Of a stretch of DNA of 64,000 nucleotides, positions 39,461 to 56,644 are shown in pieces. A program made the translations under genes and the position numbers. How positions within the stretch are numbered: position 1 is the first letter of the stretch; each line of letters starts with the position of its first letter. The stretch is from positions 186,001 through 250,000 of the forward strand of contig NZ_NJIH01000003.1 in assembly GCF_002209565.1 (NCBI RefSeq), written 5' to 3'. The notes below the pieces were generated by a model that saw only the letters and a program-made list of their open reading frames with translations, was not told where the DNA came from and did no database searches. The stretch is from Candidimonas nitroreducens (GTDB lineage Bacteria; Pseudomonadota; Gammaproteobacteria; Burkholderiales; Burkholderiaceae_B).

Positions 39461-39852
39461 GGCGTGTGGTGGATGAGTATCTGGCGTGGCCACGCGGTAG
39501 CCTGCGATCAAGCCCTGCTGTGGCCGGAATCGGTGCCGCGCCCCCGATCCGCATCCATGAAATTATGTCTGCGCACACATGGCGGCGTTGCAGCTTGGCG
39601 CGAAAGCTGGCGGCTGTTGCTGCGTCTTGGGTCTCGGCTTGCGCACCAATCCGTCAATTTTATAGTGGGCGCGAAGTCGGGGCCACGACGCCGGTGGACA
39701 CTGGCGGACTAGCGGAATTGTAAATGGATGCGCCGGTCTTGCTCTTGGCAAACCGATCCGGCTTGGACGATGGGCCGTGCTCGGCTATTCTGGCGGCATT
39801 GCACCGCGGCGGGCGGGATGCTGCCGATCTGCCGGCACTATACGGAACCATC

Positions 39853-42800
39853 ATGTACTTCGACACCAGACTCTGGGCCATGACGCGCGGGACGCGGCTG
39901 CGCATTGCGCTATGTGCCTTGCTGGGCCTGCTCGGCCTGGCCGCGGGCATCGCCCGCTTCGCCTTGCTGGGGCGGTTCCTGGCGCTGTTGTTCGCCGGTG
40001 CGCCGGTGGCGGCGTTGTGGCCGCCATTGGCGGGCACGGCGGCGGTCATCGTATTGCGCGGCCTGTTCGAACATTGGCTGAACACACAGGCCAATGCCAA
40101 CGCGGCGCGCATCCAGGAGCGCCTGCGCGCGCGGCTGTACGACAAGATCGTGGAGCTGGGGCCGGCGTGGTTCGGCGGACAGCGCACCGGCGGGGTGATG
40201 CTGGCCGTCATCGACGGGGTCGAGCAGCTGCAGGTGTTTTTCGGGCGCTACCTGCCGCAATTGTTCGTGGCGGCCTGCGCACCGGTGATGATCTTCGCCT
40301 TCATCGCCTGGTGGGACTGGCCGGTGGCTCTGGTGCTGCTGGTGGCGGCACTCATTACCCTGATAATGCCGTTGGCCTCGCATCGCGCCAACCGTGTGGC
40401 GGCGCAGGGGCGGCAGCAGGCTTTCAAGGAATTCGGCGAGGAATTCCTGGATGCGGTGCAGGGCCTGCCCACGCTCAAGGCCTTCGGGCAGAGCCGCGCC
40501 TGGGGCGAACGCCTGGCACGGCGCGCGCGGGCGCTTTCGGACAACACGTTCAAGGTGCTGGGACGCGAGGTCTCGGCGCGCTTCCTGACCGATCTGGGCA
40601 TTACGCTGGGCGCGGCCGCCGCGCTGGCTCTGGGTGCTTGGCGCGTGTCGCACGGGCAGATGACGCTGGCGGCCTTGCTGGTGGTGCTGATGGCCGGCAC
40701 GGAAATATTCCGCCCCTTGCGCGACCTGCGTTCGGTGCTGCACAGCGGCATGGCCGGCCAGTCTGCCGCGGCCAGTGTGCACGAACTGCTCGACGCCGTA
40801 AGCACCGCGCCGCGCGCTGCCGCGGGGGCGGGCGGTTTGCGTGCCGGGCCCGACGGCCTGGCGCTGGCGCTGCGCAATGTGACGTTCGGGTATCCAGGGG
40901 CGCAAGCCGCCACGCACCGTGGGCTGAGTTTTTCGGTGGCGGCGGGCGAACGGGTCGGCATCGTCGGCCCCAGCGGCGCGGGCAAGTCGTCGCTGGTGCA
41001 ATTGCTGCTGCGGCTGTACGACCCGCAAGAGGGCACCGTCGAGATCGACGGCACGGATCTGCGCCGGCTCGATCCGCAGGCGGTGCGCGCGCTGATTTCG
41101 GTGGTGGCGCAGGACAGCATGTTGTTCCACGGCACGGTCGAGGAAAACCTGATGCTGGCGCGCCCAGGTGCAACGCGCCAGCAAATGGAGGCGGCGGCCC
41201 TTGCGGCCAATGCGCACGACTTCATCATGCAACTGCCGCAAGGCTATGCCACGGTGCTGGGCGAGCGTGGCGCCCAGCTTTCGGGCGGCCAGCGCCAGCG
41301 CCTGGCGATTGCCCGTGCGCTGCTGCGCGATGCGCCCATACTGATCCTGGACGAGGCGTTGTCTTCGGTGGACGCCGCCAACGAGGCCGAGATCCAGCAG
41401 GCCCTGGATCGCCTCAGCCGCGGCCGTACCACGCTGGTGCTGGCGCACCGTTTGTCTAGCGTCGTCAATGCGGATCGCATTCTGGTGCTGGACGGCGGTC
41501 AAGTGGTTGAAACGGGAACGCATGCCAGCCTGATGAGGGAGGACACGCTGTATCGGCGCCTGATGGGGGCGCAGGATGGCGAGCTGTCGGTGGGCGAACG
41601 CGACGCTATTGCGGCGCAAGGCGCGCGCCCGCATGAAGGCAAGCGTGCCGCCGCGGATGTGGATGCGGGCGAGCGGTCGTCCGTGGTGCCGCCATTGGAC
41701 GAAGATGCGCAGCGGGCCAAGCCGGGCAAGCTCGTGCATACGCTGTTGGAGATCATACGGCCCTGGCGCCGCAGCTTCGCCGTAACCGTGGTCAGCGGCA
41801 TCGGCCGCGTGGTGGCGTTTATTGGCGTCTCGGCGCTTAGCGCGTTGATCATTGCGCATCTGAAGGACGGCACACCATACAATGCACTGCTGGCGGGCTT
41901 GTTCGTCGCGGCGCTGGCCGCCGCCACCTTGCATTGGATCGAATCGTGGCTGGCGCATTCCATCGCCTATCAGCTGCTGGCCGAGATGCGCATTGCGCTG
42001 TACGACAAGCTCGAAGCCCTGGCGCCGGCGTATCTGCTGCGGCGCCGTTCGGGCGATTTGGTCGGCCTGGCCACGCAGGACGTGGAAACGGTGGAATACT
42101 TTTTCGCCCACACGGTTGCGCCGGCTTTCGTGGCAGTGCTGGTGCCGCTGGTGGTGTTGATCATTCTTGGCATTAGCGCCTGGCCCTTGGTGTTCGCGCT
42201 GCTGCCGTTCCTGGCGTGGGCGGCGGCCACGCCGGTGCGCAGCCGCGCGCGCGTCGACGCCATGGGCACGCGCGCCCGCAAGGGGCTGGGTCTGCTCAGC
42301 GCCCATCTTTCCGAGACCATCCAGGGCCTGCCCGATCTGCTGTCGTTCTCGGCCACGGGCCGGCGCCGCGATGCCTTCCTGGCTTTGCTGCGCCGCTATC
42401 AGGCCACGCGGCTGGCCTTGCTGGCCGACCTATCGCGCCAAAGCGCCTTGCTGGAAATCGCCACTGGCCTGGGAGGCCTGTCCGTCGCCGCGGTGGGAGC
42501 ATGGTGGGTGATGCAGGGCCATCTTGCGGCCGCGACGCTGCCGCTGTTGATTTTGCTGTCGGTCGCAGCCTTCCTGCCGGTGTCCGAAATCGCGCAGGTG
42601 AGCCGCCAGCTGGCCGATACGCTGGCGTCCACGCGGCGCCTGCGCGCCGTGCACGACGAGCCCGTGGCGGTTACCGATGGCACGCAGGCGCCGCCCTTGC
42701 GCGCGGGTGGCCTGCCAGTGGATTTCGACCACGTGTCGTTCACCTATCCCGGCCGCCACGCGGCGGCGCTGGACGGGGTCAGCCTGAGCCTGCCGGCGGG

Positions 42801-43455
42801 CGCCACCCTGGCGCTGGTGGGCCCCTCGGGGGCTGGCAAGAGCACAATCGCCAGCCTGCTGCTGCGCTTCTGGGATCCGGTGCAAGGCGTCTTGCGCATC
42901 GACGGCGTGGATCTGCGCGATCTGACGCTTGAGGCGCTGTATGCCCGTATCGCACTGGTGGCGCAGGACACCTGGCTGCTCAACGGTACGCTGGAAGACA
43001 ATATCCGCCTGGCGCGGCCCGACGCGGATCTTGCCGATGTGCAGCGCGCGGCCGAACAGGCGGCGCTGGGGGGCTTCGTGGCGACGCGCCCCGAGGGGCT
43101 GGCCACCCGCGTCGGAGAGCGTGGCGTGGCCTTGTCGGGCGGCCAGCGCCAGCGCATCGCCATTGCCCGGGCGTTCCTGCGCGATGCACCGATACTGGTG
43201 CTGGACGAGGCAACCTCGCATCTGGATGCGGTCAGCGAGGCGCAAGTCCACGAGGCCCTGGCAGTCCTGATGCGCAACCGCACCACCTTGATCATCGCGC
43301 ATCGCTTGTCCACGGTGCGGCAGGCCGACGCCATTGCCGTCGTCGACCGCGGCCGCATCGTCGAGCATGGTACGCACGAGCAATTGCTGGTGCGCGGCGG
43401 TGTCTATGCGCAGCTGGTCAGCCGCCAACTGGCGGCGGCGCGCCAGGCGGCATAG
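39853..43455 (+). CDS. Fused double ABC exporter, CydDC-like
   Basis: 1200 residues holding two complete half-transporters in one chain: membrane domain 1 (about 1-310), ATPase 1 with Walker A GPSGAGKSS (near 372), LSGGQ (near 476) and LDEALSS; then membrane domain 2 (about 610-900), ATPase 2 with GPSGAGKST (near 990), LSGGQ (near 1094) and LDEATSHLD. The first half has the YLPQ and VEQLQ features of CydD and the second looks CydC-like, so export of cysteine/glutathione for cytochrome bd is possible; a general type IV exporter is the alternative. No cydAB is in the window. The ATG at 39853 was chosen; an upstream start at 39724 adds unlikely sequence. Confidence 0.85.
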   Translation: MYFDTRLWAMTRGTRLRIALCALLGLLGLAAGIARFALLGRFLALLFAGAPVAALWPPLAGTAAVIVLRGLFEHWLNTQANANAARIQERLRARLYDKIVELGPAWFGGQRTGGVMLAVIDGVEQLQVFFGRYLPQLFVAACAPVMIFAFIAWWDWPVALVLLVAALITLIMPLASHRANRVAAQGRQQAFKEFGEEFLDAVQGLPTLKAFGQSRAWGERLARRARALSDNTFKVLGREVSARFLTDLGITLGAAAALALGAWRVSHGQMTLAALLVVLMAGTEIFRPLRDLRSVLHSGMAGQSAAASVHELLDAVSTAPRAAAGAGGLRAGPDGLALALRNVTFGYPGAQAATHRGLSFSVAAGERVGIVGPSGAGKSSLVQLLLRLYDPQEGTVEIDGTDLRRLDPQAVRALISVVAQDSMLFHGTVEENLMLARPGATRQQMEAAALAANAHDFIMQLPQGYATVLGERGAQLSGGQRQRLAIARALLRDAPILILDEALSSVDAANEAEIQQALDRLSRGRTTLVLAHRLSSVVNADRILVLDGGQVVETGTHASLMREDTLYRRLMGAQDGELSVGERDAIAAQGARPHEGKRAAADVDAGERSSVVPPLDEDAQRAKPGKLVHTLLEIIRPWRRSFAVTVVSGIGRVVAFIGVSALSALIIAHLKDGTPYNALLAGLFVAALAAATLHWIESWLAHSIAYQLLAEMRIALYDKLEALAPAYLLRRRSGDLVGLATQDVETVEYFFAHTVAPAFVAVLVPLVVLIILGISAWPLVFALLPFLAWAAATPVRSRARVDAMGTRARKGLGLLSAHLSETIQGLPDLLSFSATGRRRDAFLALLRRYQATRLALLADLSRQSALLEIATGLGGLSVAAVGAWWVMQGHLAAATLPLLILLSVAAFLPVSEIAQVSRQLADTLASTRRLRAVHDEPVAVTDGTQAPPLRAGGLPVDFDHVSFTYPGRHAAALDGVSLSLPAGATLALVGPSGAGKSTIASLLLRFWDPVQGVLRIDGVDLRDLTLEALYARIALVAQDTWLLNGTLEDNIRLARPDADLADVQRAAEQAALGGFVATRPEGLATRVGERGVALSGGQRQRIAIARAFLRDAPILVLDEATSHLDAVSEAQVHEALAVLMRNRTTLIIAHRLSTVRQADAIAVVDRGRIVEHGTHEQLLVRGGVYAQLVSRQLAAARQAA

Positions 43456-46512: not shown

Positions 46513-46853
46513 TGGTGACCTCCTGTTGTGGAAGCGGGTGGAATCGGCGCCCTGGGTTTTCTGCGGATTCCCGCTAAAGGGCGCCGGCGGGGAACCGGAA
46601 GGCTGTATGCCGGGCTTGTGCTTAGGTTAGCCGGCAGGGGTTTAAAAACAAAGGCAATTAATTCTAATAATCCAATAGTCAACAACTATTCTCGTGCTGG
46701 GGAATGCGTGCATATTCAATTTCCAGTCGTGGGATCGCAGTCTTTCTGGATGCTTATCCCCGGCCTACGAACGGCATCTTGGTGGCCATGACGGTCATGA
46801 ACTGCACATTGGCCTCGAGCGGAGGATCGGCCAGCGGATGCACGATGCTAGTC
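46513..46853. other. Catalase upstream region with copy of an SDR gene 3' end
   Basis: A 341-base stretch without an intact gene. The part next to catalase (46513-46752) should hold its promoter. At 46753-46822 lies a 70-base copy of the end of the SDR gene at 55799. Between the repeat and the LysR gene, similarity to the SDR gene falls away at once. Confidence 0.75.
46753..46822 (-). repeat. 70-bp direct repeat, left copy
   Basis: Identical base for base to 55798-55867. Read leftward it codes for the last 22 residues of the SDR protein ([20 protein letters not shown] and on to the stop). After 46822 the two copies diverge, with only scattered matches. It marks the left edge of the 9-kb accessory block. 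Confidence 0.95.
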
Positions 46854-47795
46854 TCATTGAGGACGAAAGAACCTCTTTCCATTGTCCGGATTGCAGAGTT
46901 CGCTAACAAGCGAAAACACTCGACGTGCGATCGGACTGGCTTCTTCGGCGTTTACCGCAACAATAACTTGTAATTCCGGAGTTCCGTTGATGCGGACGAA
47001 TTCAAGCTGGGGTAGCTTCAGGATGGCGGCAGAGCTCGGAACAAATGCGATTCCCATTCCTGCACTCACCAATCCCATAACCATCAGGAATCCGTCTGCT
47101 TCTTGCACGCGATCCAGCGCTACATTTTCTCGCGCCAGCCAGCGCATAAGAGTGACATGAACACCTAGCTCTCCTCCGTAATCGGGGAACATAATGAGTC
47201 TTTCGTTCAGGAGGTCGCGCAGTTCCACGCATTCCATAGTGGCAAGTCGATGGCCCGCAGGGACGGCGAGCGCAAATTCGTCCCGGTGGATTATGGTCTG
47301 TTTCAGATCACGGCCGGCCATTGGAGAACGAAAAAAACCAATATCGATCTCGCCTTCAAGCAGGGCCCGCCGCTGGTTGTAGACCGAAACGGGTTTGATG
47401 ATCAGATTGACATCGGGGAAATGCTCCGCAATTTTCGCGATCAGAAAAGGGGTGCCGACGAACGCCAGGGATGATATGTGTCCGATGGTCAATGACCCCG
47501 AAATTCCTTGAGAGGCGTGCAAAGTGGCTCGTAGTGCTCTTTCGGCGTCCGCTAGAAGGGGGCGCGCATGGTGCAGCAATTCTTTGCCAGCTTCGGTTAG
47601 TTCGACCGCTCTTGATCCCCTCCTGAACAGCGTTACTCCGAGGTTGTTCTCCAGTGTCCTGATTTGCATGCTTAGCGCGGGCTGAGCGATATGCAGAACG
47701 TCCGCGGCCCGGCCGAAGTGCAGCTCTTCAGCCAGGGCAACGAAATAGCGAATGCTCTTCAATCCAAGGTGCCATAAGGAAGGCTGATGAGCCAT
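46854..47795 (-). CDS. LysR-family transcriptional regulator
   Basis: 313 residues. The winged helix is at about 13-72 (LKSIRYFVALAEELHFGRAA and the following AQPALSMQIRTLENNLGV) and the effector domain at about 95-305. It is CbnR/BenM-like in its first part. It is divergent from the luciferase-like monooxygenase gene with a 109-base gap containing a perfect 15-bp palindrome, so control of the rightward monooxygenase genes is likely. It lies at the left end of the acquired block, 31 bases from the repeat. Confidence 0.9.
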   Translation of the reverse strand: MAHQPSLWHLGLKSIRYFVALAEELHFGRAADVLHIAQPALSMQIRTLENNLGVTLFRRGSRAVELTEAGKELLHHARPLLADAERALRATLHASQGISGSLTIGHISSLAFVGTPFLIAKIAEHFPDVNLIIKPVSVYNQRRALLEGEIDIGFFRSPMAGRDLKQTIIHRDEFALAVPAGHRLATMECVELRDLLNERLIMFPDYGGELGVHVTLMRWLARENVALDRVQEADGFLMVMGLVSAGMGIAFVPSSAAILKLPQLEFVRINGTPELQVIVAVNAEEASPIARRVFSLVSELCNPDNGKRFFRPQ

Positions 47796-47807
47796 GAAAA
47801 ATTTCCT

Positions 47808-47822
47808 ATTGGACTGTCCAAT
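47808..47822. promoter_or_regulatory. Probable LysR operator
   Basis: ATTGGACTGTCCAAT is a perfect palindrome with 7-base arms and one central base, and contains the T-N11-A pattern of LysR sites. It sits 13 bases upstream of the LysR start and 83 bases before the monooxygenase start, as expected for a shared divergent control region. Confidence 0.7.
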
Positions 47823-47904
47823 CTCTTAATCCTAGCATTTGTCGGCCAAGGTGCATCTCGCCTTGCAGCGATATCTTTTGCTGCTTTTTTGCTTTGAGGT
47901 CTTT

Positions 47905-49008
47905 ATGCCAGTGAATATTATCGGAATGATCGGGGCGGCGCCTCCTCCGGCGCGCGCTGTTCACGTTATCGGCGGCGGGGTCGATCCTAGTTTCCTGGTC
48001 AAGAACGCCCGCGCGCACGAACAAGCCGGCTACGACGAAGTTCTCGTTGGGTATACTTCGGCGTCGCCCGATAACTGGGGATTGACGGCCTGGGCTGCTG
48101 CACACACCGAGAAGCTTCGCTTCCTCGTTGCTCATCGGCCAGGACGTATCGTACCGGCGCTGATGGCGCGAAAGGTGGCTACCCTAGATCAGTTGTCGGC
48201 CGGGAGGATTTCGCTTCACATCATCATTGGCGCATCCGACGGCGACATGGCCGCTGAAGGGGATTTTAGCGATAAGCCCGCCCGATATCACAGGGGTGCA
48301 GAGTTCCTAAATATTATGCGAAGCATCTGGACTGCTGACGGGCCGGTCGATTTTGAGGGGGACTTCTACCGCGTACGTGGCGCACAGTCGAATGTGTCGC
48401 CTTTCCAGAAGCCGTACCCACCGATTTATTTCGGCGGATCGTCCAACGGCGCCTTGGAAATGGGGGCGCAGCACTGTGATGTGTTTGCCATGTTCGGGGA
48501 GCCATTGAAAGAAACTGGCGAGCGGGTTCTGAGCTACCGGAAACGGTGCGCCGCACACGGCCGCACCGCGCGATTTAATATTTCTTTCCGCCCGATCATC
48601 GGTGAAACGGAAGAGCAAGCATGGGACAAGGCGCATCAATATCTGAGCGAGTTCAGCGCAGCGTCGCAGGATCCTCACTTTGTGACGAACAAAGCGAAGA
48701 AAGATGTGCCGATTAGCAAATCGAGCCAGCGGATCGTGCAGCTTGCGAACAAGGGCAATGTATATGATGAACGCCTCTGGATGCCGCTGGCCGCGGCCAC
48801 AGGCGGAATTGGAAATACGACTTGTCTCGTCGGCACGGCCGAGCAAGTTACCCGCGCGTTGATGAAATATTACGCTCTAGGTGTCACTTCTTTCTTGCTC
48901 CGTGGGTTTGAGCTGGAGCAGGATCTCGAGATTTATTCTCGTGGGCTCTTTCCGCTCCTACGAGCCGCGGCTTTGGAGCACGACAAAACCAAGGGGCTCG
49001 CGGCATGA
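47905..49008 (+). CDS. Luciferase-like flavin-dependent monooxygenase (SsuD-like)
   Basis: 367 residues, TIM-barrel LLM-class oxygenase. It shows RPGRIVPALMARKVATLDQLSAGR, FEGDFYRV and PYPPIYFGGSSNGALE segments as in alkanesulfonate monooxygenase SsuD. Such enzymes use reduced FMN from a partner reductase to oxidise a carbon or break a C-S or C-N bond. The next gene is a flavin reductase overlapping by four bases (ATGA), the natural partner. The start at 47905 has GAGGT shortly upstream. The substrate is unknown; a sulfonate is possible, but no ssuABC or tau genes are present, so other substrates are equally likely. Confidence 0.88.
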   Translation: MPVNIIGMIGAAPPPARAVHVIGGGVDPSFLVKNARAHEQAGYDEVLVGYTSASPDNWGLTAWAAAHTEKLRFLVAHRPGRIVPALMARKVATLDQLSAGRISLHIIIGASDGDMAAEGDFSDKPARYHRGAEFLNIMRSIWTADGPVDFEGDFYRVRGAQSNVSPFQKPYPPIYFGGSSNGALEMGAQHCDVFAMFGEPLKETGERVLSYRKRCAAHGRTARFNISFRPIIGETEEQAWDKAHQYLSEFSAASQDPHFVTNKAKKDVPISKSSQRIVQLANKGNVYDERLWMPLAAATGGIGNTTCLVGTAEQVTRALMKYYALGVTSFLLRGFELEQDLEIYSRGLFPLLRAAALEHDKTKGLAA

Positions 49009-49973
49009 GGGACGCTGAGGCTGAAGTTTGTTCGACGCTCGTAGATGGCCTTTCCGATTGGGACTCCAAGGAGCTCCGCCGATGCCTGGGGCAATACGCC
49101 ACCGGCATCACAGTGATGACGGGAAACGTGGGAGGCAGGCTCATCGGTGTCACCGCCAATTCGTTCGCATCTGTTTCGTTAACACCACCGTTGATTCTGT
49201 GGTCCGTGGATCGCGCCTCCCGCAGTTACGATGCGTTTGCCAATTCGGAAAACTTTTGTGTCAACGTCCTTAGCCAAGAACAGAGCGCCGTTTCCCAATT
49301 ATTCGCGAGCAAGGTTGACGACAAGTTCGCCAGTTGCCGGTTTGTTATGGCCGCGAATGGATGCCCTGCTTTCGAAGATGCCCTGGCGATACTGGAATGC
49401 AAGGTTGATCGGACATACGAGGCTGGTGATCATCTATTGATGGTTGGTCTGGTGACTCGTATCAGAGTCAGGGAAGGCAAACCGCTACTTTTCGCCCAAG
49501 GTCGGTACGGTATCTTTGATGATTTCCCTCTCGTGACGGGTGCGAGTCGATCTGCGGCGATCGGTAGCGATGTGGCATATGAGAATACGATTACCGCCCT
49601 GCTTCTGCATGCATATCATCGCACAACTCAGAAATTCGCTGCGCAACGCGCCGCCTTTGGCCTGGACGTTGCTCGCGGTAGAGTGTTGGGATATCTCTAC
49701 GTGCACGGCGAAGCGTCGATCACAGCGGTATCGAAGCACATGTATCTTGGCGCGAGAGAGTGTGAAGAAGCCGTTCGTCAGCTGATCGATTCGGGCGCCG
49801 TGACGAAAGTGAGCCACGATAAATATGCTTTGACCTCTTCGGGACGAGATCTGAGAGAAACAATGGGAAGAGAGTTTCTCGAGTTCGATAGAGCAGTGTC
49901 GGTTGCGCTAACGAGCGATGAGGCTGACATACTTCGAAGCGGTTTGCGCAAATTAATAGAAACAACCCACTAG
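49005..49973 (+). CDS. Flavin reductase fused to a MarR-type winged helix
   Basis: 322 residues in two parts. Residues about 20-175 form a HpaC-like flavin reductase (LGQYATGITVMTGNVGGRLIG and NSFASVSLTPPLILWSVDRAS). Residues about 185-320 resemble a MarR winged helix (TALLLHAYHRTTQKFAAQRA, VARGRVLGYLYVHGEASITAVSKHMYLG). The same layout is known in the C1 reductase of Acinetobacter baumannii p-hydroxyphenylacetate hydroxylase, where the MarR-like part binds substrate and releases autoinhibition. It is coupled to the upstream oxygenase and should feed it reduced flavin only when the substrate is present; this control is inferred by analogy. Confidence 0.88.
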   Translation: MRDAEAEVCSTLVDGLSDWDSKELRRCLGQYATGITVMTGNVGGRLIGVTANSFASVSLTPPLILWSVDRASRSYDAFANSENFCVNVLSQEQSAVSQLFASKVDDKFASCRFVMAANGCPAFEDALAILECKVDRTYEAGDHLLMVGLVTRIRVREGKPLLFAQGRYGIFDDFPLVTGASRSAAIGSDVAYENTITALLLHAYHRTTQKFAAQRAAFGLDVARGRVLGYLYVHGEASITAVSKHMYLGARECEEAVRQLIDSGAVTKVSHDKYALTSSGRDLRETMGREFLEFDRAVSVALTSDEADILRSGLRKLIETTH

Positions 49974-50066
49974 CATTGGCGGTGCAAAGGCATGGTTGTG
50001 CCTGGGCGAGTTTTTGTCGGAACCGCTTTGGGTGTCGGCGCGACATGAATATAAAGGAGACGAAGC

Positions 50067-51047
50067 ATGAGCTTTAATGAGAATAGGATTGGGAGAAGAG
50101 CCTTCCTGGTTTTGAGTGCTGGCGCGCTGCTCTGCAAGCAGGCATTCGCGCGTAGCGATTTTCCGAATAAGCCGGTAAAGGTAGTTGTTCCTTATTTGCC
50201 TGGTGGTAATTCCGATGTTTTGGGACGGATGCTGGCCCGGGGTTTATCGGCCCTATATGGGCAGCAGTTTTTTGTCGAGAATAAGTCGGGCAGTAACTCG
50301 ATTATTGGAACGAATTACGTTGCGAAGTCTCCCGCTGATGGCTATACCTTGCTGTTTGCGATAAGTGCGCTTGCAAACAACGAGACTCTTTACAAGCGTC
50401 TCCCATACAAGCGTAGCGAGTTAACGGCGGTTGCTGGGGTGGCAAGAACGCCTTTGGTTCTGGCAACCGGCCATCCGGTTGAAAGCCTGCAAAAGTTCAT
50501 AGAATTTCTCCATGGGCGCTCCATGGTTTCGTATGCCACGAGTGGTGTAGGATCTGCCGCGCACCTTTTGTCGGAACGGTTCGTCCAAGCGATGAACCTG
50601 CAATCTGCCACACATGTTGCATATAAAGGAAGTGCCGCGATCATTGCAGATCTGGTACCGGGAAGAGTCGATTTCACCTTCGATTCCGTCACGCTCATGG
50701 GCGGGTTGATCAAGCAAGGAAAATTGCACGCCCTTGCCGTGACGAGCGAAGAACGGCTACCCGCCTTGCCCACTGTTCCGACTCTGAAGGAGTTGGGGTT
50801 TCCCTCGCTTACGTTTTATGTATGGGGAGGTGTTTTTGCGCCCGCCGCTACCCCTCCAGCGGTGGTGGACAGCCTTTCGGCCGCTGTTCAGGAAGTGTTG
50901 GGCAAACCGGAAGTGCGTGCCAAGCTGAGAGAGCTGAATATTGAGCCTTTCCTCATAAAGTCGGCCGAGTTCAATAGATTTATTGACCGGGATATTCAGG
51001 AAAGTGGTGATCTGATCCGGCGGATGAAAGTCGTGCTGGATCAATAG
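50067..51047 (+). CDS. Bug/TctC-family substrate-binding protein
   Basis: 326 residues. The N-terminus has a twin-arginine-like start (IGRRAFLVLSAGALL) before cleavage near residue 29, then FPNKPVKVVVPYLPGGNSDV, the family's first ligand-binding strand. Membrane partners TctA/TctB are absent here. Codon use is clearly AT-richer than in the other two Bug genes of the window (7600 and 60986). Located 93 bases after the flavin reductase and 35 before the aldehyde dehydrogenase, it probably binds the pathway substrate or a product. Confidence 0.9.
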   Translation: MSFNENRIGRRAFLVLSAGALLCKQAFARSDFPNKPVKVVVPYLPGGNSDVLGRMLARGLSALYGQQFFVENKSGSNSIIGTNYVAKSPADGYTLLFAISALANNETLYKRLPYKRSELTAVAGVARTPLVLATGHPVESLQKFIEFLHGRSMVSYATSGVGSAAHLLSERFVQAMNLQSATHVAYKGSAAIIADLVPGRVDFTFDSVTLMGGLIKQGKLHALAVTSEERLPALPTVPTLKELGFPSLTFYVWGGVFAPAATPPAVVDSLSAAVQEVLGKPEVRAKLRELNIEPFLIKSAEFNRFIDRDIQESGDLIRRMKVVLDQ

Positions 51048-51082
51048 CGTCGATTCCTCCATTTCTTGAGCGAGAAATTCAC

Positions 51083-52432
51083 ATGGTATCTCTGGTTTGC
51101 GGTATCGAGACGGAAAGCCCTTCAATTGAAAATTGTCTGGAAGCAACTTCGGCCATTTTCGCTCATGTGAAAAGCACAAGCCCTGCACACCGGGCGGACA
51201 TCCTTGATGCGATCGCTGACAAGTTGAAGGCCTCCGTCAAAGAGACAGCGGCTACTCTGGTGGCCGAGGCTGACTACCTGTCGCGATCGGACATGGAGTT
51301 CGAATGCGAACGCGCAGCAGAGTTGTTCAAGCTTGCTTCCGCTCAAGTCCGCATTGGAATGACGGAAACTTTGCAAGTTGATGTCGTCGAACGCGGTCAA
51401 GGGGCGATCGGGTATGTCAAGCGGGAACCGATCGGAGCAATCCTTGGCATAACCGCGTTCAACGCTCCTTTGCTGATTCCCGCTCACAAGATGGCTCCCG
51501 CAATTGGCATCGGTGCTCCAATTGTCATAAAGCCGTCCCCACGTGTGCCCCGCGCCGCGGTTGAGCTGGTGAAACTGGCCCTTGAGGTCGGCTGGCCCGC
51601 GGAGGCGATTTCGGTTCTCAACGTTTCGGATAGCGAGACACAGGCCTTGATCAAGGACGAGCGGCTGCCTGTAGTCAGCTTCACGGGCGGTCGATTCGGC
51701 TGGGTAATCAAGGAGATGATTCCCCGCAAGCACGTTCATCTTGAATTGGGCGGGGTTGGCGCCGTAATCATAATGGGCGATGCGAACATACGCCTTGCGG
51801 CCAAGGAGTGTGCCGCTGGGGCGTTCGTACGCTCGGGGCAATCCTGCATTTCGGTTCAGAGAATTCTTGTAGAACAGGGCAGGTACGGTGAATTCGTCGA
51901 TCTCTTCGGCTTGCAAGTCAAGGCATTGGCGGCTGAGGGCGATGTCCCGCTGGGAACGATGGTTGATGAGGGGTCTGCTGCTCGAGTTGAGGCCCTGGTT
52001 CAGGAAGCCGTTGATAACGGAGCGCAGGTGGTGTGTGGTGGCGCGAGGTCGGGCGCGCGTATAGAGCCGACTGTCGTGCGTGATGCCAAACCTACGATGA
52101 AGGTCATGCGGGCCGAAGCGTTCGGCCCAGTAGTCGCGATCATGCCGTTTGCGAACATTGAGGACGCCGTCGCCGAGGTAAACGCGGTTGGAGGCGCCAT
52201 CCAGCACGGTCTCTATACGGCGAACATCGATCTGGCGTTGGCTGTGGCGGATCGGATTCACGCTGGCGGGGTGATCATCAACGGGCCGAGCACCTGGCGG
52301 CTTGACCACATGCCTTATGGAGGTGTCGGGGATTCTGGATACGGGCGTGAAGGCGTCCGCTATGCAATGCTCGAGTTCACTAGGCCCAAGGCTGTTGTCA
52401 TTCGCCCGACGGGTATCGCGAGCCGGATGTAG
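51083..52432 (+). CDS. Aldehyde dehydrogenase family protein
   Basis: 449 residues, slightly short for the roughly 480-500-residue family. It has the Asn-bearing ITAFNAPL loop, VIKPSPR, FTGGRFGW, the general-base Glu in HLELGG and the catalytic Cys in SGQSCISVQRI. It oxidises an aldehyde to an acid with NAD(P)+; closest in look to salicylaldehyde/vanillin- or lactaldehyde-type enzymes. It is last in the rightward monooxygenase set and convergent with the lyase/CoA-transferase genes. It probably oxidises an aldehyde freed by the flavin monooxygenase (inference). Confidence 0.9.
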   Translation: MVSLVCGIETESPSIENCLEATSAIFAHVKSTSPAHRADILDAIADKLKASVKETAATLVAEADYLSRSDMEFECERAAELFKLASAQVRIGMTETLQVDVVERGQGAIGYVKREPIGAILGITAFNAPLLIPAHKMAPAIGIGAPIVIKPSPRVPRAAVELVKLALEVGWPAEAISVLNVSDSETQALIKDERLPVVSFTGGRFGWVIKEMIPRKHVHLELGGVGAVIIMGDANIRLAAKECAAGAFVRSGQSCISVQRILVEQGRYGEFVDLFGLQVKALAAEGDVPLGTMVDEGSAARVEALVQEAVDNGAQVVCGGARSGARIEPTVVRDAKPTMKVMRAEAFGPVVAIMPFANIEDAVAEVNAVGGAIQHGLYTANIDLALAVADRIHAGGVIINGPSTWRLDHMPYGGVGDSGYGREGVRYAMLEFTRPKAVVIRPTGIASRM

Positions 52433-52472
52433 CCCCGCTCCCTTCGCTAGGAGTTCGGGCGCCGCAGTTCTG

Positions 52473-53384
52473 CTACTGATGTTGGGGCGGGTGGAGTTCC
52501 GTACTGTGGCCGGCCTTTGCAACCTGTCCCGGAACCTCATGTCCGACGATTCTTGGCATTTTACGCGCGGCGGCCATCAGCTGAGACAGATTGATCCCCG
52601 TGTCATATCCCATGGCTTGCAGCATATGGATGGCATCCTCGCTGCAGATGTTGCCGGTGGCCCCTGGAGCGTAGGGGCATCCGCCCAGCCCGCCGAGCGA
52701 ACCGTCGAACCGGTCGATGCCGGCCTGCACGGCGGCAAGCACGTTGGCGAGACCCATTCCGCGCGTGTTATGGAAGTGCAGCGTGAGCTGTAGGTCACTG
52801 AAGCGGGCTATAAGTGCTTCCGCCATCCTGGCCACTTGGATGGGGTGCGCCATGCCGGTCGTGTCGCAGATGGTCAGGCCGCGCACGCCGAGACTGGCGT
52901 AGCGGTCGGCCCAGCGCAGCACTTCGTCCAGGGGGATTTCGCCTTCCATTGGGCAGCCGAAGGAGGTCGAAAGCGATATGTTCACTGGCACATGGCCGGC
53001 AGCTAGGGCAATTACGTCTCGGAGGTCGGCAAGGCTTTTCTCCCGCGACATTCGGAGGTTTGCCAGATTATGGGTTTCAGAGACCGACATCACCAGGTTC
53101 AACTCGTCGGCCCGCGATTTGAGCGCGCGTTCCGCTCCACGGACGTTCGGCACGAGCACACTGTATTCCACGTCGGAGCTGCGGCGAATGCGCCTCATTA
53201 CCTCCTCGGCATCTCGCAGCATCGGGATGGCCCGGGCAGAGGTGAAGGAGGTTGCCTCTATCTTGGAGAAACCGCATTGGCCGAGTTCGTCGATCAAGGC
53301 GATCTTCTCGTCCGTGGGGATGAACGTGGGTTCGCTCTGGAATCCGTCCCGGGTAACGACTTCGTTGAAGTGGATGCGCTTCAT
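52473..53384 (-). CDS. HMG-CoA lyase-like enzyme
   Basis: 303 residues, DRE-TIM metallolyase. It has the EVVTRDGFQ start (metal Asp), HFHNTRGMGLAN (metal His pair), and the signature GGCPYAPGATGN with the catalytic Cys, followed by ICSEDA. Enzymes of this type split 3-hydroxy-3-methylglutaryl-CoA or related citramalyl-type CoA esters to acetyl-CoA and an oxo acid. It overlaps the upstream CoA-transferase by four bases (ATGA), so its substrate is probably the CoA ester made by that enzyme. Confidence 0.9.
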   Translation of the reverse strand: MKRIHFNEVVTRDGFQSEPTFIPTDEKIALIDELGQCGFSKIEATSFTSARAIPMLRDAEEVMRRIRRSSDVEYSVLVPNVRGAERALKSRADELNLVMSVSETHNLANLRMSREKSLADLRDVIALAAGHVPVNISLSTSFGCPMEGEIPLDEVLRWADRYASLGVRGLTICDTTGMAHPIQVARMAEALIARFSDLQLTLHFHNTRGMGLANVLAAVQAGIDRFDGSLGGLGGCPYAPGATGNICSEDAIHMLQAMGYDTGINLSQLMAAARKMPRIVGHEVPGQVAKAGHSTELHPPQHQ

Positions 53385-54604
53385 GCGGCTGTTCCTGCAA
53401 TGATGCCCCGGTTCTTCAATGCTTGGATCTGTTCCGGGCTCAGGCCGATCTCATGCAAGACGGCGTCGGAGTCTTGGCCCAAGTGGGGTGCGTTGCGACG
53501 CCAGCGGCCTGGCGTGCGGGACAGCTTCGGCACGATTCCCGGGACGGCGAGCTTGGTACCATCTTCCATTTCGACCTGCTGCAGCATCCCGCGGGCACGG
53601 TAGTGGGGGTCGACGGCGATATCGGCTACGGTGTAGATCCGCCCAGCTGGGACGGACGCACCTTCCAGCAGTTCCAGTGCCTCTCGAGCGCTCCTGTCTG
53701 CGATCCAGGCGCCGATCGCTTCGTCCAGCTCTGCCACTCGCGACACGCGTCCCGCGTTGTCAGCAAGACCGGGATCATTGCCCAGGTCGCCGCGGCCAAT
53801 GACGTTCATGAGCCGACGGAAGATACTATCGCCGTTGCCCGCGATAACTACGAAACCGCCGTCGTTGCAGCGATAAGCGTTGCTTGGGGCGATCCCCGGG
53901 AGAGCACTGCCTGCAGGGTCGCGCACTTTGCCGAAGGCGCTGTATTCCGGCACTAGGCTTTCCATGCAATTGAATACTGCTTCGTACAGCGCCACGTCAA
54001 TGATCTGGCCCCTGCCGCTGAAATGCCGTTCGTGCAACGCCAGCAAAATGCCGATTACGCCATGCAGCGCGGCGAGCGTATCGCCGATGCTGATGCCCAC
54101 GCGAACGGGTACGCGGCCCAGTTCACCAGTCAGGTGCCGCAAGCCTCCCATGGCTTCAGCCACCACGCCGAAGCCGGGCCGCCTCTGGTAAGGGCCCGTC
54201 TGGCCGTAGCCGCTGATACGTAGCACAATGAGCTGCGGGTTCAGTAGTTGCAGAGCTTCTGGGGCGAGTCCCCAGCCTTCGAGCGTACCGGGACGGAAAT
54301 TCTCGATCAGCACGTCTGCTTCGCTCGCCAGTTTGCGGATGATCTTTTGGCCATCGTTCTCTCGAAGGTCGAGAGCTACTGAGCGCTTATTGCGCGACTG
54401 AACCTGCCACCAGACGGAAGTGCCATCCTTCAACATGCGCCATTTGCGCAATGGGTCGCCGGCTCCGGGGGGCTCGATCTTGATTACGTCGGCGCCGAAG
54501 TCAGCGAGTGTTTTCGCGGCAAACGGGCCGGCGATGAGTTGTCCTAGCTCGAGAACCTTCAGTCCCGCGAGCGCAGCCGGGGAGGGTTGTATAGCGGTTT
54601 CCAT
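53381..54604 (-). CDS. CaiB/BaiF-type (class III) CoA-transferase
   Basis: 407 residues, normal length. It begins with the conserved LAGLKVLELGQLIAGPFAAK and NKRSVALDLR segments, and has the catalytic Asp in GISIGDTLAALHG (about residue 170). It moves CoA between carboxylic acids. It is first in a two-gene leftward unit with the HMG-CoA-lyase-like gene, and a LysR gene starts upstream on the same strand. Together they would activate and split an organic acid. Confidence 0.92.
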   Translation of the reverse strand: METAIQPSPAALAGLKVLELGQLIAGPFAAKTLADFGADVIKIEPPGAGDPLRKWRMLKDGTSVWWQVQSRNKRSVALDLRENDGQKIIRKLASEADVLIENFRPGTLEGWGLAPEALQLLNPQLIVLRISGYGQTGPYQRRPGFGVVAEAMGGLRHLTGELGRVPVRVGISIGDTLAALHGVIGILLALHERHFSGRGQIIDVALYEAVFNCMESLVPEYSAFGKVRDPAGSALPGIAPSNAYRCNDGGFVVIAGNGDSIFRRLMNVIGRGDLGNDPGLADNAGRVSRVAELDEAIGAWIADRSAREALELLEGASVPAGRIYTVADIAVDPHYRARGMLQQVEMEDGTKLAVPGIVPKLSRTPGRWRRNAPHLGQDSDAVLHEIGLSPEQIQALKNRGIIAGTAA

Positions 54605-54652
54605 GCGCCACAGTATCCGATACCCGCCTCCCCGCGTCCATTCGAACCTCGG

Positions 54653-55576
54653 TCAGGCTGTCTTCGCATTTCGCGAAGGTGCACATAGGAAATTCCTTAA
54701 CGCTACAACGGCCGTATCAGGCCCGGGGCGGATGGCCACCTTCAGCTGTCGTTGTGCCCAGCCGTCAGCCAGAGGGCGCCAAGTCAGCCTCAATGCGCGT
54801 GCGAGCGGCACGGCAGTGCCCTTGGGGAGGGCTGCGATGCCAAGTCTTGACGCCACCAGATTCCCGACGGCATCGAAGCTGCGTACTTGCATGCGCAGCT
54901 TGAACGTGCGTCCAGCGGCAAGCGCGGCCTGTTGCTGCTTTTGCAGCATGGCTGCGCCAGCGTTCAGGCTGATCCATTGCTCGTCTAGCGTGTCGGCGAA
55001 GCTGATCGGCGTACGTCCCGCGAGCCGATGCCCGGCCGGCAGTACCAGTACCAGTTCGTCTTTCCGGAAATCGCGCACCTCCAGACCATAAATATCAGGG
55101 CCTTCGACAAAGACACCGATATCCGCTCGTCCGTCCCGCAGTGACGCGACGACGAGTTCGGAGAGTTGCTCTTCCACTTCCACCTGTATTTGGGGGCATG
55201 TTTCGGCGTGGCGTGCCAGCAACGGTGACAGAAACTGGTTGATCGCCGCAGTGCTTGAACATAGCAGGATATGTCGTGCGATACCTTGGCGGAGGTCGGC
55301 GATTTCAGATGCCAGGCTCTCCATCTCTTGCAGCATGTTGAGGCTGTGTTGCAAGAACACGCGCCCCACGGCCGTGGGCGCGAGCCCGCGCGAATGCCGT
55401 TCGAACAGCGCATCACCCAGCGCGTTTTCCAAATCGCGGATGCGTCGGCTGGCGGCCGGCAGCGACAGATTGCGGTCGCGTGCGGCGGAAGTCAGGCTGC
55501 CAGTCTGGGCACAAGCCACTGCCAAGTGGATAGACACGAAGTCGAACCGGGCGAGGTTGAATCCGGAGGGAGGCAC
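54653..55576 (-). CDS. LysR-family transcriptional regulator
   Basis: 307 residues from a GTG start at 55576, which has GAGGAA five bases upstream and lies right before the winged helix (FDFVSIHLAVACAQTGSLTS, then LPAASRRIRDLENALGD). The frame runs further upstream but the extension is not protein-like. The effector domain spans about 95-300. It lies 48 bases upstream of the CoA-transferase gene on the same strand, so it may be cotranscribed with it. It is the right-most gene of the acquired block, next to the right repeat. Confidence 0.85.
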   Translation of the reverse strand: MPPSGFNLARFDFVSIHLAVACAQTGSLTSAARDRNLSLPAASRRIRDLENALGDALFERHSRGLAPTAVGRVFLQHSLNMLQEMESLASEIADLRQGIARHILLCSSTAAINQFLSPLLARHAETCPQIQVEVEEQLSELVVASLRDGRADIGVFVEGPDIYGLEVRDFRKDELVLVLPAGHRLAGRTPISFADTLDEQWISLNAGAAMLQKQQQAALAAGRTFKLRMQVRSFDAVGNLVASRLGIAALPKGTAVPLARALRLTWRPLADGWAQRQLKVAIRPGPDTAVVALRNFLCAPSRNAKTA

Positions 55577-55797
55577 GCGGGTTCCTCGTCTTGCGCAGAA
55601 TATGCAGGGGATTTTCCAAGTATGCCCGATCGGCCTTTGCTCGTCGACTGGAAATTGTCCGGTGACTCTGCCTTTTTTTGGCAGCAGCGTGTATGGGTCG
55701 AGCTGTGCTGCCCGGCCTACGCGGGCCGGGCTGGCCGAATCGCATAGCTTGCGGGTGCCATGCAGGCCGGGCCGCACTGGTGCTGCGGTCGATCGTC

Positions 55798-55867
55798 CTT
55801 ATCCCCGGCCTACGAACGGCATCTTGGTGGCCATGACGGTCATGAACTGCACATTGGCCTCGAGCGG
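55798..55867 (-). repeat. 70-bp direct repeat, right copy (SDR 3' end)
   Basis: Identical to 46753-46822. It covers the stop codon and last codons of the SDR gene plus one base beyond. Because it is inside an intact gene, it is the likely original and the left copy the derived one, or the reverse if the incoming DNA brought its own SDR end. Confidence 0.95.
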
Positions 55868-56557
55868 CAGGCCGGCCATGTAGAGCACGGCGTCGGCCAC
55901 GTGCTGTACGTTCATGGTGGGCTCGGCGTGTACCGTGCCGTCGGCCTGCAGCACGCCCTTGCTGATGCCCTCGGTGAGTTCGGTCGAAGCATTGCCGATG
56001 TCGATCTGGCCGCAGGCGATGTCGTACTTGCGGCCGTCCAGCGAGGTGGCCTTGGTCAGGCCGGTGATGGCGTGCTTGGTGGCCGTGTACGAAACGGCTT
56101 GCGGCCGCGGACAGTGGGCCGAGATCGAGCCGTTGTTGATGATGCGCCCGCCGCGCGGCTGCTGCGCCTTCATGATGCGAAAGGCTTCCTGGGTACAGAG
56201 GAAGGCGCCGGTCAGATTGATGTCCACGGCCTGCCGCCATTGTTCCAGCGGCAGGTCTTCCAAAGAACATGAGGCGTTGAAAATGCCGGCGTTGTTGAAC
56301 AGCAGGTCGAGCCGCCCGAAGCCCGCGCGGATCCGGGCGAACAGCGCCTGTACCGACGCCGGGTCGCTGATGTCGGCGCTGATGGCCAGCGCTCGCGCGC
56401 CCTGCTCTGCACCTTGCGCGGCCACCGCCTGCAAAGGCTCGAGGCGGCGCCCCGCCAGCACGACCGCATAGCCATGGCGCATCAATGCCAATGCGATGGC
56501 CTTGCCTATGCCCGAGCCGGCGCCGGTGACCAATGCGACTTTGGCGGCGGAATTCAT
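55799..56557 (-). CDS. Short-chain dehydrogenase/reductase
   Basis: 252 residues, classical SDR. It has the Rossmann motif [11 protein letters not shown] (about 10-20), NNAGIF (about 88-93), the catalytic Ser in NNGSIS and YTATK (Tyr/Lys pair near 156-160). The start at 56557 follows GGAGA closely; a much longer open frame upstream overlaps yidC and was rejected. The C-terminal 22 codons are duplicated at 46753. Substrate unknown. It lies between the islet and yidC and was probably next to catalase before the islet arrived. Confidence 0.93.
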
Positions 56558-56644
56558 GCGGTGTCTCCTGGTGATGGCGGCCTTGCTGCCAGCATAGCCC
56601 AGGCGGATGCGGCGTGACAATAATCGCGGCTGCCGCAAACAAAA

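Follow-up and report, generated by a model that had tools for sequence, protein, structure and literature searches.

Within a 64,000-nucleotide stretch of Candidimonas nitroreducens DNA (contig NZ_NJIH01000003.1, positions 186,001 to 250,000 of the forward strand), which is referred to here as the window, a block of eight genes encodes a luciferase-like flavin oxygenase with its reductase, a periplasmic binding protein, an aldehyde dehydrogenase, a CoA-transferase, a lyase resembling 3-hydroxy-3-methylglutaryl-CoA (HMG-CoA) lyase and two LysR regulators. All eight were confirmed as real open reading frames, each with a strong Pfam match, and they are accompanied by a palindrome and by two copies of an 81-nucleotide (nt) direct repeat that is derived from a short-chain dehydrogenase/reductase (SDR) gene:

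46753-46833, + strand: left copy of the 81-nt direct repeat, matching the SDR gene's 3' end.
46854-47795, - strand: LysR1 (Pfam LysR_substrate 3.4e-34, HTH_1 1.7e-22), divergent from the oxygenase operon.
47808-47822, no strand: perfect 15-nt palindrome ATTGGAC-T-GTCCAAT (7-1-7), a candidate LysR1 operator.
47905-49008, + strand: group C (luciferase-like) flavin monooxygenase, a relative of SsuD (PF00296 Bac_luciferase 1.2e-62).
49005-49973, + strand: flavin reductase of the C1 type with a C-terminal MarR-like domain (Pfam Flavin_Reduct 1e-40).
50067-51047, + strand: Bug/TctC periplasmic solute-binding protein (Pfam TctC 2.3e-55; PDB 5oei 1.1e-49).
51083-52432, + strand: aldehyde dehydrogenase, ALDH (Pfam 4.4e-100).
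52473-53384, - strand: HMG-CoA-lyase-like enzyme, HMGL (Pfam 1e-46; NCBIfam PRK05692; PDB 6nds 1.3e-100).
53381-54604, - strand: CaiB/BaiF family III CoA-transferase, CaiB (PF02515 CoA_transf_3 6e-127).
54653-55579, - strand: LysR2 (Pfam), upstream of CaiB on the same strand.
55798-55878, + strand: right copy of the 81-nt direct repeat, forming the 3' terminus of the intact SDR gene (55799-56584, - strand).

The original prediction had described two convergent units under two LysR regulators, and the open reading frames and Pfam assignments reproduce this layout. Its span of 47905-54604 fits the enzymes and the Bug protein, but both LysR genes fall just outside it, and the natural unit is larger, reaching from LysR1 to LysR2 over approximately 9 kb enclosed by the repeats. 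The oxygenase and reductase genes overlap by 4 nt, as do those for CaiB and HMGL, and 40 nt separate the ends of ALDH and HMGL, where the two units converge. The palindrome adjoins LysR1 and is the sole match in the window when up to three mismatches are allowed. Directly before the oxygenase start codon, a terminator-like hairpin followed by a T run (47865-47884) possibly serves as an attenuator; terminator-like sites are not enriched in the region (6 versus a mean of 10.6 in shuffles).

The block is an insertion, because it is flanked by repeats and missing from the corresponding position of G001, the only further genome of the genus that was compared. The two repeat copies are 95% identical overall, with the first 70 nt identical, and a whole-genome search found only these two, both flanking the block. 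The SDR gene that supplies the repeat sequence adjoins yidC. The alignment of G001 with the window stops at 46690 and resumes at 56633; in place of 46691-56632, G001 carries an unrelated branched-chain ATP-binding cassette (ABC) transporter. This interval lies between the catalase gene and yidC and here holds the island and the SDR gene, which makes it a variable site, with the SDR gene counted in what differs between the two genomes. The GC content at third codon positions (GC3) is 0.56-0.64 from LysR1 to ALDH, 0.67-0.74 from HMGL to LysR2 and 0.80-0.91 in five flanking genes (ABC transporter, porin, catalase, SDR, yidC). Pfam revealed no integrase among the eight genes, and a megablast search of plasmids returned no close DNA copy of the block (35 records, best coverage 8%, with records of its own or very near genomes possibly excluded). 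Taken as a whole, the locus would be a horizontally acquired 9-kb catabolic island built from two prefabricated modules, probably used in series, a reading that we place just short of an even chance. Module A would comprise LysR1, the oxygenase, the gated reductase, the Bug protein and ALDH, and module B would comprise LysR2, CaiB and HMGL.

The best PDB matches of the oxygenase are SsuD and MsuD, and the system resembles these enzymes and their NADH:FMN reductase in its luciferase-like family and in the paired flavin reductase. The active site differs. In the alignment, the SsuD residues C54, R226, H228, R297, Y331 and H333 correspond to S, S, R, T, F and L in the window oxygenase, W196 is replaced by F, and the RGGA loop reads TGGI. 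In 38 aligned luciferase-like rows, position 226 is serine in every one of the 37 in which it is present; none of 36 has arginine at position 297. In MsuD, the sulfonate-contacting residues are R225, R296 and W195, and the variants R225A, R296A and W195A gave no measurable sulfite (PMC8234197); these residues were equated with SsuD R226, R297 and W196 by numbering offset and alignment. Furthermore, the oxygenase scores 210.1 bits against the NCBIfam equivalog TIGR03565, whose cut-off is 518.2. The enzyme is thus SsuD-like at the family level only: the luciferase-like assignment in the original prediction stands, while its suggestion of a sulfonate as a possible substrate loses weight, since the arginines that bind sulfonate are missing. 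A role of the oxygenase as an alkanesulfonate monooxygenase, with the cluster serving to desulfonate a sulfonate, is, in our estimate, highly improbable, although SsuD and MsuD are its closest solved structures, its more distant homologues are located among organosulfur genes, and sulfoacetaldehyde dehydrogenase is among the nearest models for ALDH, below its cut-off. In addition to the residues, the MsuD variants and the missed equivalog cut-off, none of 11 sulfur-related query proteins matched positions 38001-64000 of the window. A Bug gene stands where SsuD systems have the Ssu ABC transporter. As the leading idea, desulfonation was rejected on the strength of the active-site residues. A predicted structure of the oxygenase (mean predicted local distance difference test score, pLDDT, 56.9) was of no help to the interpretation.

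The oxygenase family is rare: 6 of 268 genomes of the family contain a match at 1e-60 and, across the order, 13 of 399 genomes contain one at 1e-62, the genome itself being counted in both cases. In the tree, the window oxygenase and 11 others form a clade (support 1.0) whose 12 members all carry Phe or Tyr at position 196, a feature that is also found in L143 and L178 outside the clade; its sister is the oxygenase of genome G016 (0.997). This branch is uncharacterised and is the most novel part of the block. The window and seven other clade loci (L142, L144, L145, L029, L030, L031, L032) have a Bug gene close to the oxygenase, none was found at L028 and L130, and L033 and L034 end within the oxygenase gene. 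Of 15 oxygenase loci from one search, the seven at 54-57% identity (L028-L034) were used and the eight weak ones at 25-37% were dropped; L028, L030 and L031 entered the neighbourhood counts, and the short stretches L029, L032, L033 and L034 were left out of them. Among plasmids, 1079 records held an oxygenase match, and 8 of the 30 listed were inspected.

The more distant homologues are often located among organosulfur genes. Over 30 oxygenase neighbourhoods, acyl-CoA dehydrogenase homologues occur at 16 of 23 loci outside the clade and at none of 7 inside, and rhodanese homologues at 10 of 23 and none of 7; these counts include query-source loci (3 of the 16 and 2 of the 10), and the acyl-CoA dehydrogenase match at L147 is short and weak. 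At six loci (L133, L136, L137, L139, L140, L146), the stretch with the luciferase-like oxygenase also holds a rhodanese, an acyl-CoA dehydrogenase and a homologue of 3-mercaptopropionate dioxygenase. This trio, present in 6 of the 30 neighbourhoods when the query source L179 is not counted, is apparently a conserved organosulfur cluster. Inside the clade, the locus L130 of genome G500 has a cysteine-synthase homologue, and G149 has, a few kb from the oxygenase cluster, a cysteine-dioxygenase-like gene (L144:2988-3593; Pfam CDO_I 25.2 bits, cut-off 23) that was itself a query source. Because thiol dioxygenase genes, like those for acyl-CoA dehydrogenase and rhodanese, are often near the more distant homologues, the oxygenase may have an organosulfur ancestry.

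Of the 322 residues of the window reductase, 20-318 align with the C1 reductase (PDB 5zc2, 4.7e-40) of the p-hydroxyphenylacetate (HPA) 3-hydroxylase of Acinetobacter baumannii, and the two proteins share a flavin reductase domain and a MarR-like C-terminal domain. The C1 reductase pairs with an HpaB-type oxygenase, whereas the window reductase adjoins a luciferase-like one, and the NCBIfam equivalog NF045919 gives 183.6 bits over residues 19-319, short of its cut-off of 340. The protein is therefore best described as a relative and not as the HPA enzyme itself. In C1, the C-terminal domain is self-inhibitory until a ligand binds (PMC10816480). By analogy, the window reductase may be gated by a ligand, so that of the gated reductase in the original prediction the C1 type is established by a near full-length match and the gating stays conditional. 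A C-terminal domain that acts as a DNA-binding regulator, or is a remnant without a ligand gate, seems improbable. The domain alone resembles MarR chains weakly (best 0.0014) and a winged-helix HTH_45 match lies below its cut-off, but the matches to C1 and to NF045919 span both domains. A second full-length reductase of the gated type (40% identity) lies beside a Bug gene in genome G251, up to about 5 kb from a luciferase-like gene. The predicted reductase structure (mean pLDDT 34.8) did not assist the interpretation.

Pfam also bears out the families of the Bug-type protein and the aldehyde dehydrogenase that had been proposed earlier. The best NCBIfam models for ALDH are lactaldehyde, phosphonoacetaldehyde and sulfoacetaldehyde dehydrogenase, all of them far below cut-off. 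This 5.6-Mb genome has a very large Bug/TctC expansion, with at least 150 matches among the 150 scored out of 302 candidates, and a Bug neighbour is consequently weak evidence of function.

In module B, the logic of a CoA-transferase followed by a lyase holds. HMGL reaches 321 bits against PRK05692 (cut-off 246) and retains the motifs TRDGFQ, CDTTGMA, HFHN, GGLGGCPYAPGATGN and CSED, while the CoA_transf_3 match of CaiB takes in positions 1-365 of the 366 in the profile and spans the entire domain. The solved structures closest to CaiB include 4ed9 (2.9e-71) and, as the third-best distinct sequence, human SUGCT (9br6, 3e-62), a succinate-hydroxymethylglutarate CoA-transferase; the succinate-glutarate CoA-transferase equivalog NF052585 is not reached (269 bits, cut-off 750). 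The pair thus recalls human SUGCT and HMG-CoA lyase, with the difference that here the two are adjacent bacterial genes with a LysR regulator. The expected two-step chemistry is also like that of the succinyl-CoA:(R)-citramalate CoA-transferase and (R)-citramalyl-CoA lyase of Chloroflexus, a likeness drawn from the chemistry. We take this lyase to be HMGL-like and its partner to be a family III transferase. Both Chloroflexus enzymes are named in PMC8307300, and another lyase fold that acts on HMG-CoA and citramalyl-CoA, described in PMC6689899, was not used as evidence.

Both proteins are widespread in the family: CaiB matches of 1e-120 or better occur in 228 of 268 genomes and HMGL matches of 1e-95 or better in 145 of 268, again with the genome itself counted. 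Among the first 82 HMGL and 150 CaiB matches listed, the window included, CaiB lies within 400 bp of HMGL in 49 of the 82 cases, and the other 33 have no neighbouring CaiB among the CaiB matches listed. The four nearest HMGL relatives (72-74%, L167-L170) have no CaiB in the stretches examined, and CaiB without a neighbouring HMGL is likewise seen among its 65-75% relatives (L113-L118), two of which belong to this genus. Of 17 neighbourhoods chosen for the adjacent CaiB-HMGL pair, 12 contain a LysR2 homologue, and in 10 a Bug gene lies downstream of HMGL in the same orientation, no more than about 2.5 kb away. On plasmids, where 55 records held an HMGL match and 6 of the 12 listed were inspected, CaiB directly precedes HMGL in all six annotated loci, with a TctC-type protein nearby in four and a dicarboxylate symporter in two. 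One of these plasmids, pBB2 of Cupriavidus necator, has the order LysR-CaiB-HMGL-leuC-leuD-Bug, and the leuC and leuD genes that follow HMGL there suggest that the module acts on citraconate or (R)-citramalate. In many relatives the pair is found apart from the oxygenase, frequently with a LysR and a Bug gene of its own, and it can therefore stand alone.

The original prediction had joined both units in a single pathway. The enzyme families hold and one pathway is plausible, but CaiB-HMGL also occurs without the oxygenase, GC3 differs and the palindrome is found only at LysR1; we regard the coupling of the two units as about even. Several other loci speak for it. At the G149 locus, one strand carries reductase, Bug and oxygenase genes and the opposite strand ALDH, CaiB and HMGL, followed further out by an HpcH/HpaI aldolase and another CaiB; in G016, oxygenase, reductase and Bug genes in the order of the window run convergently towards a set made up of CaiB, an enoyl-CoA hydratase and a gene with a LysR match; and in contig C30 of the same genome, an oxygenase homologue (43%, outside the clade) has Bug, ALDH, CaiB and HMGL within 9 kb. 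With the window left out, HMGL lies within 9 kb at 2 of 7 oxygenase loci from the family, compared with 6 of 150 listed Bug loci in this genome, two of the six being the window and C30. The control was counted by eye on a small hand-made set, and the excess is suggestive.

A number of observations weigh against the serial reading. The 25 oxygenase neighbourhoods outside the window contain HMGL in only two cases, ALDH in the same two, a reductase in two and CaiB in three. The partners at those loci are not orthologous (ALDH 29-30%, CaiB 25-43%, HMGL 35-38%), and the reductases are about 30% identical and lack the C-terminal domain. The composition of the two units, their separate regulators and these non-orthologous partners argue for independent modules, and LysR2 has no counterpart of the LysR1 palindrome anywhere in the window at up to three mismatches. 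Moreover, such neighbours can arise by chance, because these genomes are crowded with Bug and CaiB genes (for CaiB, 78 first-look candidates, 6 of them scored). The two modules may thus be unrelated and merely co-imported, B taking an imported branched dicarboxylate directly and A forming a separate oxidation route that ends in a carboxylic acid, which we consider a serious possibility though below even. No luciferase-like match was found in the 17 CaiB-HMGL neighbourhoods, a set chosen for the adjacent pair that shows that the pair can stand alone and not how often it does, and HMGL is missing from 23 of the 25 oxygenase neighbourhoods. Against such independence, a single repeat-bounded insertion holds both units, module B in the window has no Bug gene of its own on its strand, and CaiB is joined by a lyase or hydratase at the three other oxygenase loci G149, G016 and C30.

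If the modules do work in series, the Bug protein would help to import a carboxylate-bearing compound, and the reductase would idle until a ligand binds its MarR-like domain and would then feed reduced flavin to the oxygenase. The oxygenase would oxidise a carbon next to a heteroatom, in a compound other than a sulfonate, and release an aldehyde that ALDH would turn into an acid. CaiB would activate a 3-hydroxy-3-substituted dicarboxylate, for example (R)-citramalate or 3-hydroxy-3-methylglutarate, and HMGL would split the CoA ester into acetyl-CoA and pyruvate or acetoacetate. The substrate of an HMGL-type lyase must be a CoA ester that is hydroxylated at C3; with coupled modules, the acid would therefore be citramalate- or HMG-like, the preceding aldehyde would be a semialdehyde of the same skeleton, and the starting compound would bear the heteroatom on the future aldehyde carbon. 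We infer the substrate, the aldehyde product, the chemistry of module B and the feeding of B by A. A more specific version is tentative and rather unlikely: the oxygenase would represent an uncharacterised group C branch, with a conserved Ser/Arg pair, Ser227 and Arg229, replacing the sulfonate-binding arginines and with a gated reductase, and would open an undescribed pathway that proceeds from C-heteroatom cleavage of a branched hydroxylated carboxylate through CoA transfer and a lyase to acetyl-CoA and an oxo acid. In agreement with the earlier statement that no named pathway has this set of genes, no title or abstract opening was found that describes it, in a literature coverage that excludes most subscription journals. 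Outside the block, the window has a single reading frame of 1243 amino acids at 39724-43455, the translation of which seems to hold two ABC-transporter halves.

Each enzyme type in the block is known, the oxygenase branch is uncharacterised, and a link between the two sets is plausible. The oxygenase branch marks a region of the family where annotation of SsuD-like proteins as desulfonating enzymes is probably wrong. The arrangement LysR-CaiB-HMGL-Bug recurs and represents a testable, putative dicarboxylate pathway, in which module B probably splits small branched acids. If the modules act in series, the island would constitute an undescribed route that joins a two-component flavin oxygenase with a lyase that releases acetyl-CoA, and its gate would guard against wasting NADH.

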